Shown one piece after another: positions 22,288-25,620 of a stretch of DNA of 64,000 bases (the first letter of the stretch is position 1; each line of letters opens with the position of its first letter). The position numbers were made by a program, and so were the translations under genes. Origin of the DNA: Thermococcus nautili. Lineage in GTDB: Archaea > Methanobacteriota_B > Thermococci > Thermococcales > Thermococcaceae. The stretch is taken from NCBI RefSeq assembly GCF_000585495.1, contig NZ_CP007264.1, positions 868,001 through 932,000 on the forward strand, written 5' to 3'. Below the pieces are notes generated by a model, which was given only the letters and a program-made list of their open reading frames with translations, searched no databases and had not been told where the DNA came from.

Positions 22288-23340
22288 TCAGATAACTCCG
22301 GTGATTTTAGCGGCTTTCTCGGCCGCTTCGCGGGTGAGGCCGTCCTTTCCAAGGATTGTGTAGCGCTCGGGCCTTATCGTGTGGGCGATAGTTAGGGCCT
22401 CGATTATAATTTCCGGCTCGATTCCGAGCTCGTATGCTGTAGTTGGTGCCCCAACCCTCTTTAAGGTTTCCCTAACGCGCTCCCACTTCATGCCGTGAAG
22501 GTAGGCCATTATAATCGTCCCGAGTCCCGTCTGCTCGCCGTGCAGAGCGGGTTTGTCGAGGAGCATGTCAAGGGCGTGGCTGAAGAGGTGCTCCGCACCG
22601 CTCGCGGGTCTTGAAGAGCCGGCTATGCTCATCGCGACGCCCGTGGAGATTAGGGCCTTTATAACTTTCCTAACGCTCTCCTCGTTGCCGAGCCGTATTA
22701 TGTCGGCGTTCCTCATGACCATCTTGGCGCTCATTAGACTGAGCGAGGCCGCATACTCGCTGTAGTACTCTCCCCGAATCCTGTGGGCCAACTGCCAGTC
22801 CTTTACGGCCGTCAGGTTGCTTATCGTATCGCCAACCCCCGCCGCGAGGTAGCGGTAGGGTGCGGTTTTGATGACCTTGACGTCCGCTATGACCGCTATC
22901 GGCGGGACGGCCTTGACTGAAGTTTTAGCACCCAAATCTCTTATCGAGGCGTTGGCGCTCGCTATGCCGTCGTGGGAGGCCGTAGTTGGGAAGCTGATGA
23001 AGGGAACGCCCGTTTTGAAGGAGGCGAGCTTGGCGACGTCTATTATGCTTCCCCCTCCCACCGCTATGACCCAGTCGGCGCTCTCGTCCTTTATCAGGTC
23101 TATCGTCCTCTCAACTTCCTCCATCGTCGCGCCCTTTCTGACGGTGAGCGAAACAACTTCGTACTCGGATTTAAGGCTATCCTCAACATCTTTACCCGCT
23201 ATCCCCTTCGTTCTCGGCCCGTAGAGTATGAGGGCCTTCTCGCCGAGGCCCAGCCGTCTCGCAACGTTCACAACTTCCCCTTTAAGGTCCTCGCCCAGCA
23301 AAACCTCGCGGGGAAGCTGCATCAGGTGAAGTCCCTTCAT
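22288..23340 (-). CDS. egsA: sn-Glycerol-1-phosphate dehydrogenase
   Basis: A 350-residue NAD(P)H- and Zn-dependent enzyme that reduces dihydroxyacetone phosphate to sn-glycerol-1-phosphate, the backbone of archaeal lipids. [12 protein letters not shown] binds NAD. Metal ligands lie in [21 protein letters not shown] and [21 protein letters not shown] precedes the ATG. Its TATA box (CCTTAAAGC on the minus strand, 23372-23380) falls inside the first copy of a 37-bp direct repeat. Confidence 0.96.
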
Positions 23341-23364
23341 TCTCCCACCCCTAACCTCTCGGAA

Positions 23365-23401
23365 GGAAAAGCTTTAAGGCTATCGGAACAACCGTCTATG
23401 G
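23365..23401. repeat. 37-bp direct repeat, copy 1 (egsA promoter)
   Basis: Matches 24767-24803 at 36 of 37 positions (T at 23381, C at 24783). It contains AAAGCTTTAAGG, which reads as a TATA element on both strands. On the minus strand it places transcription about 11 nt before egsA. The pair flanks the ATPase cassette like a target duplication or recombination scar. Confidence 0.85.
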
Positions 23402-23473
23402 CGACCTTAAAAAGTCCAGAGACTTCCTGAGTCCCTTTGGAGACCCAGCGTGGCTTGCTCAAGGGTTCAATTT

Positions 23474-23526
23474 TGGTCTTCCACATAAGGAAATATTTAA
23501 ATAATATTTCCTCCCATAAAAGACCA
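23474..23526 (+). promoter_or_regulatory. Nested palindrome over the ATPase-gene promoter
   Basis: An inner inverted repeat, GGAAATATT and AATATTTCC (23489-23497 and 23503-23511), is centred on a TATA-like ATTTAAATA. An outer pair, TGGTCTT (23474-23480) and AAGACCA (23520-23526), brackets it and runs into the ATG. This symmetry over the core promoter suggests repressor control, possibly autoregulation. Confidence 0.55.
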
Positions 23527-24779
23527 TGATTGACAAAGATTTAACCCTCCAGTACCTGGCGGACTTCCAAGAGAAAAAGCTCCCAGAAACCGTCGAGCGC
23601 GAATTGAGAGTTCCCCTAAAGAGCGGGCAAATCATAACCCTAATCGGGCCGCGGCGGAGCGGAAAAACCTTCTACTTCTACCAGCTCATTAAAGAACTCC
23701 CGCGCGAGGACGTTCTCTACATAGACTTCGAGCATCCCATCTTCGAGGGATTTGAGTCAAGGGACATCATGGACGTCCTTAAACTCCATCGTGAGGCCTT
23801 TGGCGAGCCGGCTTACGTCTTTCTCGACGAGGTTCAGGCTGTCAAGGGCTGGGAGCGAATGGTCAGGTATCTCCACGACGAGGGGTATTCAGTTTTCGTA
23901 ACCGGCTCCTCCTCAAAGCTCCTCTCCATGGAGATAGCCTCAAGGCTGAGGGGAAGAACGCTGACCTACACGATGCTCCCCTTCTCGTTTCGGGAGTTCC
24001 TGAGGGCGAGGGAATACCGTGTGAGACGACCCCTGAGCTCAAAGCGGGAAGCTGAGCTTAAGGCCCTGCTCAGAGAGTACCTCGAGTGGGGGGGCTTTCC
24101 AAGGGTCGTCCTTGAGGATAACGAGATGATTAGGGAGAAGCTCCTCGAAGAGTACCTCGACATGGTTCTCTACAAGGACGTCGTGGAGCGCTACGGCGTT
24201 AGAAACCTCCACGTGATGAAGCTCCTCCTCCGCTCGCTGATGCGTTCCTTCGCCAAGGAGTTCAGCGTTCACGCCTTCTACAATGCCCTCAAGTCCCAGG
24301 GGATAAAGGTCAGCAAGGGAGTCCTCTACGAGTACCTCAGCTATCTTGAGGATTCAATGAGCGTCTTCCTGGTGAAGAAGTTCAGCTACTCCCTAAAAAC
24401 CTCGGAGCTTTCGATTCCAAAGGTTTACCCAGTTGACGCCGGCTTTCCACGGCTTTTCTCATTTACACCCGACACGGGCAGGCTCATGGAGCTCGCGGTG
24501 TTCCTTGAGCTGAAGAGACGGGAAGTGGAGGTTTACCACTACAAGAACCGGGGGGAGGTTGACTTCGTGGTAGCTAAGAGAGGCCAGCCCGTCGAGCTGA
24601 TTCAGGTCACGTACGCGCTGGACTCTGGAGACGTAAGGCCGAGGGAAGTCGAGGCCCTGAAGTCCGCCGGCAGAAAGCTGGGCGTGGAGAGCCTAACGGT
24701 GATAACGTGGGACTACAGAGACGAGAAAGATGGAATCCGCTTCGTTCCGCTCTGGTGCTTCCTCACGGAAAAGCTTTAA
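23526..24779 (+). CDS. AAA ATPase with DUF4143/nuclease-like C-terminus
   Basis: A 417-residue protein. Walker A is GPRRSGKTF (about residues 39-47), Walker B is YVFLDEVQ and sensor 1 is VFVTGSSS. The middle is winged-helix-like. The C-terminal DUF4143 part has ELKRREVEVYHYKNRGEVDFVV and VELIQVTY, a PD-(D/E)XK-like arrangement. This is a multicopy, patchily distributed archaeal and bacterial family with no settled function. The gene sits between two copies of a 37-bp repeat, and its last codons lie inside copy 2, which suggests recent insertion. Confidence 0.85.
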   Translation: MIDKDLTLQYLADFQEKKLPETVERELRVPLKSGQIITLIGPRRSGKTFYFYQLIKELPREDVLYIDFEHPIFEGFESRDIMDVLKLHREAFGEPAYVFLDEVQAVKGWERMVRYLHDEGYSVFVTGSSSKLLSMEIASRLRGRTLTYTMLPFSFREFLRAREYRVRRPLSSKREAELKALLREYLEWGGFPRVVLEDNEMIREKLLEEYLDMVLYKDVVERYGVRNLHVMKLLLRSLMRSFAKEFSVHAFYNALKSQGIKVSKGVLYEYLSYLEDSMSVFLVKKFSYSLKTSELSIPKVYPVDAGFPRLFSFTPDTGRLMELAVFLELKRREVEVYHYKNRGEVDFVVAKRGQPVELIQVTYALDSGDVRPREVEALKSAGRKLGVESLTVITWDYRDEKDGIRFVPLWCFLTEKL

Positions 24780-24803
24780 GGCCATCGGAACAACCGTCTA
24801 TGG
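24767..24803. repeat. 37-bp direct repeat, copy 2 (DUF63-gene promoter)
   Basis: The second copy encodes the last residues and stop of the ATPase, then supplies the TATA element for the DUF63 gene, whose ATG is 8 nt past the repeat. Distances from TATA to start codon are the same as for egsA in copy 1. Confidence 0.85.
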
Positions 24804-24810
24804 TGGTCGA

Positions 24811-25620
24811 ATGGGACTCTACGAGTTTTTTTACCGCTATTTCGTTGAACCCATAAAGTACAATCAGGGTTACAACGTCGTGAACACCCTCGTTTACGCC
24901 TTAATCCTCGGCGTCGCCGTTCTGCTCCTGTATAAGATGCTCAAGAGGATGAGGGTAAAGGTGGACGAGCGCTTCTTCGTGGCTCTCATGCCCTACATAA
25001 TCCTCGGCCCGCTGATGAGGAGCATGACCGACATAGGCCTGCTCCCGAGGACATACTTAACAGTCAGCCCCGGTGGTTACTTCGTCATAGCGGGCTTCGC
25101 GATAGCGTCCCTCTTCGCCGTCTGGAGACATCTCGGGCCGGACGACAGGCTCTACCCCATATATCGCGACTTTGGGTGGGTTCTCGTCGCGGGCCTGCTC
25201 TTCATAATGGTAATTAACTGGGACAGGGTGTCCGTCAGATGGGACTACTTCAAGTACTTCCTCCCAAGCCTTCTCGTTGCGGAATCCTTCATCTGGCTCC
25301 TCTCAAGGAAGTTCGAGCTCGTGAGAAACAACAAGATACTATTCTACACCCACTTCTATGACGCGACGACCACCTTCGTTGGAATCCAGTTCTTCGGCTT
25401 CTGGGAACAGCACGTTCTCGCGAGGACGCTGATGAACCTGTTTGGAACGCCTGCCGTCATGTACCTTGAGAAGCTGGTTATAATCACGCTCGTGATTTAC
25501 GTTCTCGACAGGCTGATGACCGATGAGGACCCCGAGCTTATAAACTTCGTCAAGCTGACGGTCTTCATCCTCGGATTCGGCCCGGGAACGAGGAACCTGC
25601 TCATAACGTTATTGAGGTGA
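24811..25620 (+). CDS. DUF63 family membrane protein
   Basis: A 269-residue protein with seven or so hydrophobic helices: VVNTLVYALILGVAVLLLY near residue 25, then ALMPYIILGP, YFVIAGFAIASLFAVW, VLVAGLLFIMVI and others. It has the conserved segments RSMTDIGLLPRTYLTVSPGGYF and TTTFVGIQFFG...WEQHVLARTL. These are typical of DUF63, an uncharacterised archaeal family. ATG 24811 follows GGTGGTCGA. Its stop is just before the next start, so the two are probably co-transcribed. Confidence 0.82.
   Translation: MGLYEFFYRYFVEPIKYNQGYNVVNTLVYALILGVAVLLLYKMLKRMRVKVDERFFVALMPYIILGPLMRSMTDIGLLPRTYLTVSPGGYFVIAGFAIASLFAVWRHLGPDDRLYPIYRDFGWVLVAGLLFIMVINWDRVSVRWDYFKYFLPSLLVAESFIWLLSRKFELVRNNKILFYTHFYDATTTFVGIQFFGFWEQHVLARTLMNLFGTPAVMYLEKLVIITLVIYVLDRLMTDEDPELINFVKLTVFILGFGPGTRNLLITLLR

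Follow-up and report, generated by a model that had tools for sequence, protein, structure and literature searches.

A candidate defence ATPase gene between two copies of a putative egsA/DUF63 promoter in Thermococcus nautili and related species

Accessory-gene hotspots of bacteria are exchanged via conserved flanking genes by homologous recombination. The locus described here in Thermococcus nautili resembles these hotspots in that mobility genes are absent and the gene content varies at one constant position flanked by conserved genes. In contrast, the spot here is a single shared core promoter, which has to be duplicated for use, and the duplication would then permit scarless loss. The locus also resembles the target-site duplications of transposons, which are direct repeats around an insert that occur as a single copy in relatives. 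However, the repeat here is 37 bp long, is accompanied by neither a transposase nor terminal inverted repeats, and does not recur at other loci of the gene family. In Pyrococcus furiosus COM1, a homology of about 40 nt, which is near the 37 bp found here, reportedly sufficed for marker exchange (PMC3462420), and the integrase of the T. nautili plasmid pTN3 can mimic homologous recombination between DNA segments about 100 bp in length (PMC5495485). The gene at this locus matches PDC-S01, a candidate defence family that is described, in the available part of the source, as a very common, archaea-enriched single gene, not experimentally validated, whose product joins an ATPase to a PD-(D/E)XK domain (PMC12988326). 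Site fidelity and promoter duplication, both of which are seen here, are not described for PDC-S01 in that part of the paper (PMC12988326). No literature on DUF4143 genes in Thermococcus was found.

The window, i.e., the whole analysed stretch of 64,000 nucleotides from the genome of T. nautili (G000), contains an ATPase gene between egsA and a DUF63 gene (Table 1). The earlier note had described two 37-bp copies with one mismatch around the ATPase gene, 1402 bp apart, and both the coordinates and the mismatch were reproduced (36/37 identical positions, 1402 bp from start to start). The observed repeat score was 34, compared with a maximum of 12 over 300 shuffles. The 37-mer occurred only twice in the 1,976,356-bp genome in a search that allowed up to three mismatches; a common dispersed repeat, which the earlier note had raised against its own reading, was therefore ruled out for T. 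nautili. The ATPase gene was the sole gene of the insert, in agreement with the absence of a transposase reported previously; neither a transposase or recombinase gene nor terminal inverted repeats were detected within the insert. The left 80 bp of the insert had no match in the 61 genomes of the genus except for the ATPase promoter itself.

Table 1. Features of the egsA/DUF63 locus in window coordinates; promoter assignments are predictions.
Feature	Position	Strand	Description
egsA, NAD(P)-dependent glycerol-1-phosphate dehydrogenase	22288..23340	-	NCBIfam; left neighbour, putatively served by the left copy
Low-divergence tract G050/G006	23298..24785		Two-breakpoint fit, lnL gain 94.6; 2.5% inside, 17.4% outside
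Left 37-bp promoter copy	23365..23401		Putative promoter of egsA (-); sits where the original shared promoter was; matches the empty sites of G031 and G053 exactly
Inserted segment between copies, 1365 bp	23402..24766	+	Missing from 44 relatives by empty-site comparison
Palindrome AGGAAATATTTAAATAATATTTCCT with TATA-like core	23488..23512	+	Probable ATPase promoter/operator; stretch common to the ATPase genes of G020, G038 and G043
ATPase gene, 417 aa, AAA_14 + DUF4143	23526..24779	+	Pfam; PADLOC candidate defence family PDC-S01
Right 37-bp promoter copy	24767..24803		Putative promoter of the DUF63 gene (+); contains the ATPase stop codon 24777-24779; one mismatch vs the left copy
DUF63 membrane protein gene	24811..25620	+	Pfam; right neighbour, putatively served by the right copy

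The 37-mer contained a palindromic core, AAAGCTTT, and a TATA-like sequence, AAAGCTTTAA, in the promoter block that is legible on both strands, as had been noted earlier. Furthermore, the block was the best-conserved part of the egsA/DUF63 intergenic region among 43 empty sites (mean of 1.46 bits per column inside and 0.86 outside). The ATPase reading frame also ends within the right copy, which supplies its three final codons and its stop codon (GAA AAG CTT TAA, 24768-24779). The transcript starts and the promoter roles of both copies are predictions from these sequence features. The longest open frame of the DUF63 gene (24730-25620) has its first position within the ATPase gene; judging by conservation and the promoter, the true start is at 24811. 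Promoters of the ATPase family contained palindromic or repeated boxes: AGGAAATATT..AATATTTCCT makes up the palindrome in Table 1, and another ATPase site (L148:3310-3400) showed repeated TTTACCACCATACYGGTAAAC-like boxes that were also kept in species without that gene. These boxes point to a possible autoregulation.

The DUF63 gene was taken in 61 Thermococcus genomes and the sequence upstream was read; a few genomes were left out (some at contig ends), and about 50 relatives were compared. An uninterrupted egsA-promoter-DUF63 arrangement with one promoter block was identified in 44 genomes, with an egsA-DUF63 spacing of 63 to 142 bp. These included the close relatives G031 and G053, both of which carried a perfect single copy, CTCTCGGAAGGAAAAGCTTTAAGGCTATCGGAACAACCGTCTATGGTGGTCGAATGGG, and the DUF63 protein of G031 was 98% identical to that of the window. 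The cassette was present with the same joints in G000 and three further species (G010, G050, and G006), and the left and right copies were identical at 36, 37, 35, and 35 of the 37 positions in G000, G010, G050, and G006, respectively. An empty site thus held one copy of the repeat, as expected in a target-site-duplication test. The order egsA-promoter-DUF63, which the earlier note had proposed as ancestral, is therefore intact in relatives, and its proposal of an insertion that doubled the shared promoter is confirmed by the empty sites with one block and the filled sites with a full block on each side. These comparisons show that the insertion occurred within Thermococcus, in a lineage descended from an ancestor with a single putative promoter block.

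The explanation that we favour, with a probability of roughly 0.6, is that a single-gene PDC-S01 candidate cassette sits within the overlapping divergent promoter that egsA and the DUF63 gene share, where it would have been inserted, exchanged, and lost by recombination. The dS of the ATPase gene between G050 and G006 was 0.076, compared with 0.51-0.98 in five flanking genes, and between G000 and G006 it was 0.21, compared with 0.58-1.03 in the flanking genes. The low-divergence tract shared by G050 and G006 (Table 1) had its left end in the first codons of egsA and its right end inside the right promoter copy, and its divergence was low inside and high in the flanks, which is the pattern sought in a test for a homologous-recombination hotspot. 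These results show exchange of the candidate cassette between species, in a tract that extends from the 5' end of egsA into the right block. Because the tract ends in the egsA start and the right promoter copy, it fits homologous recombination through these, and the conserved promoter block and the egsA start would have served as handles. Spread between species is most likely explained by homologous recombination through the flanks rather than by jumping.

An unlikely alternative is that the cassette is at times circular, with one promoter copy, and integrates through a single crossover, carried out either by the recombination machinery of the host or by an integrase that acts in the same way. 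One crossover between promoter copies would yield exactly this structure, and the pTN3 integrase of T. nautili carries out homologous-recombination-like reactions on short segments (PMC5495485). However, this integrase needs about 100 bp (PMC5495485), and the G050/G006 tract runs to the left past the promoter into egsA, which fits a linear exchange with two crossovers. A related and quite improbable idea is a transposase-free mobile cassette that uses a core promoter of the host as its attachment site: thanks to the doubled 37-bp promoter, the defence-candidate gene would exit without a scar as a circle and could then insert again into any relative that has this promoter, and the expression of the neighbours would be kept at each step.

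The nearest other ATPases (75-77% identity) were located directly before the DUF63 gene in G020, G038, and G043, and their stop codon likewise lay inside the DUF63 TATA box (CTTTAAG). The ATPases of the G000 and G020 groups formed one clade (support of 96), and their C-terminal lengths were one or two codons apart. No 37-bp repeat was present at the DUF63 site of G020, G038, and G043. To the left of the sister ATPase there was an extra gene for a protein kinase with a beta-propeller, about 1050 aa long; egsA was located on the far side of this gene in G020, and the contigs of G038 and G043 stop before egsA. The earlier note had held that relatives with the ATPase gene in place and no direct repeat would speak against its reading. 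Such relatives do occur in these three species, yet the extra kinase gene on the left sets their site apart, and the objection stands only in part. The sister ATPase without a repeat before the DUF63 gene in three species means, therefore, that the junction of the ATPase gene with the DUF63 promoter may be older than the repeat.

The beta-propeller and Ser/Thr kinase gene beside the sister ATPase was found at L169:5972-9124 in G020 and at L170:9-3095 in G038, and its end was present on the G043 contig; a paralogue of the kinase was located near another ATPase of G020 (L102:3391-5400). The kinase adjoining the sister ATPase matched the PADLOC defence-kinase models mad6 and PD-T4-6, and this neighbour would be in keeping with a defence role of the ATPase.

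In the proposed scheme, the incoming DNA would already have carried ATPase-promoter-DUF63, as in G020, G038, and G043; after its recombination into the promoter already present, the resident block would lie to the left and a second block to the right. Since a single TATA region would serve both egsA and the DUF63 gene, an insertion would be tolerated only if a complete block remained on either side, and selection, not a transposase, would set the repeat. We tentatively regard recombination of such a donor into the resident promoter as the most likely origin, and this is the least certain step of the account. The right block in the G000 group was of the host type and not of the G020 type, which argues against this origin; a block from a G020-type donor must therefore have been replaced or converted since. 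The difference of one or two codons in ATPase C-terminal length and the lack of a genus-wide match for the left 80 bp also count against the favoured explanation.

Loss of the cassette likely occurred in G031, whose empty site would represent a scarless deletion between the repeats. At this locus, G031 was closest to the filled G000 and G010 on both sides, with about 4-6% divergence from G000 at the edges, and no imported G053-like tract was present around its empty site (the flanking genes differed by about 18% from those of G053). The empty site therefore reads as a loss. In a tree built from about 10.8 kb of other loci, the filled G006 and G050 fell outside G000, G010, and the pair of G031 and G053, which also fits an insertion before these species and a loss in some of them, with recombination as a caution. 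On the other hand, the evidence for the loss in G031 consists of local similarity and a small tree, and the wider tree pairs G031 with the empty G053. If the insertion predates the six species, the grouping of G031 and G053 would still correspond to one loss.

The suggestion in the earlier note that the repeat is a clue to how DUF4143 ATPase genes move in general did not hold. Direct repeats were sought between 400 bp before and 300 bp after the gene at 110 DUF4143-ATPase loci of the genus. A long flanking repeat occurred at one site only, represented by the four orthologous loci in G000, G010, G050, and G006, and the best direct repeat was at background level at the 106 other ATPase loci. A long flanking repeat as a family-wide signature was thus ruled out over the 110 loci, since it was confined to the egsA/DUF63 site. 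Four other ATPase sites that were filled in the window genome and empty in near relatives (compared with G031, G050, G010, and others) had no such repeat either. When sites were defined by both flanking genes, 93 loci fell into 14 sites with at least two members; the ATPase tree of these loci needed 15 site changes, compared with a shuffled mean of 69, and the nearest ATPase relative was at the same site in 85/93. The other ATPase sites showed even identity over the gene and its flanks between species, as under vertical descent. At one empty site, a relative had kept the promoter of the ATPase gene together with a remnant of its 3' end, and some empty sites are therefore losses. These comparisons show that the predicted ATPase genes of the family keep to their own sites and come and go there. 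No sign of a general transposition mechanism for the ATPase family was seen.

At one of the other sites, two relatives had different genes. In G031 (L187:808-1501), an apparent PIN-domain toxin-antitoxin pair stood where the window genome has the ATPase, and the palindrome of the ATPase promoter and a 3' stub remained. At the same site in G010 (L188:684-1501), there was an unrelated membrane-protein-like gene behind an inverted copy of this palindromic promoter (TTTATAAA core, GTACTGTA arms).

This survey also bears on a transposon-like insertion, in which an enzyme with a long staggered cut would have produced the 37 bp as a target-site duplication. The filled and empty sites look exactly like such a duplication, and both copies within each genome resemble each other. 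However, the insert lacks a transposase and terminal inverted repeats, the long repeat is missing from the 106 other family loci and from the four polymorphic sites of the window genome, and the ATPase genes seldom change site. Moreover, the ends of the repeat match the conserved promoter, which selection explains. A transposon-like origin therefore appears distinctly improbable. Independent insertions in the G000/G010 and G050/G006 lineages, each doubling its own promoter allele, would account for lineage-specific letters that are common to both copies, such as GGAACAACCG in G000 and G010, and for GAAGGAC, which G050 has in both copies and G006 has in its left copy; but all four filled genomes share their joints and the 80-bp leader, and conversion between copies would produce the same letter pattern, which makes this scenario very unlikely. 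Purely vertical descent from a common ancestor, with losses and without exchange, agrees with the other ATPase sites, which appear vertical with losses and have even identity over gene and flanks, but is extremely improbable in view of the sharp breakpoints and an ATPase dS several times below the flank dS between G006 and the others; the dS contrast refutes it unless synonymous sites of the ATPase gene are unusually constrained.

The ATPase protein matched AAA_14 (1.7e-35) and DUF4143 (1.3e-16) in Pfam, and the PADLOC model of PDC-S01 at E=1.2e-105 over residues 25-415; it thus shares the PDC-S01 profile over most of its length, with an AAA_14 ATPase domain. Walker A (GPRRSGKT) and Walker B (LDE) were present, and their key residues were invariant or nearly so in the 110 members of the genus. 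In contrast, the PDC-S01 description includes a PD-(D/E)XK domain (PMC12988326), whereas the ATPase here is without the lysine of the (D/E)xK motif; the canonical residues are expected from the published description and are not a known requirement for membership. D346 was kept, and both the genus members and the archaeal relatives had S/T/C/N at the position of the catalytic lysine. The motif EVDF...LIQV(S/T)Y...RE (24555-24650 in the window; residues 344-374) had nearly invariant Q and V in the genus: EVDF followed by LIQV(S/T) occurred in nearly all 110 members, and in a wider, mostly archaeal set the 22 homologues had Q/N-x-S/T/C/N after EVDF. These results suggest a conserved but different use of a PD-(D/E)XK-like site. 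Since the catalytic lysine is absent from every homologue compared, ordinary DNA cutting by this ATPase is doubtful, and the protein would be a poor candidate for moving itself. The AlphaFold model (mean pLDDT of 90) had strands that fit the PD-(D/E)XK fold. A structure search matched mainly the AAA+ part with low TM-scores, and Orc1/Cdc6, RuvB, clamp loaders, and TnsC were among the matches; sequence comparison with solved structures gave short P-loop matches only. Judged by its profile matches, the ATPase gene is a candidate antiviral gene of PDC-S01.

PDC-S01 is reportedly among the commonest candidate defence genes of prokaryotes (PMC12988326), and the egsA/DUF63 site offers a clear case of its spread by recombination between species. 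The doubled promoter represents a plausible case of scarless loss. Furthermore, the locus indicates that a gene may be placed in the overlapping divergent promoter of two conserved genes, including egsA of archaeal membrane-lipid synthesis, without obvious harm.
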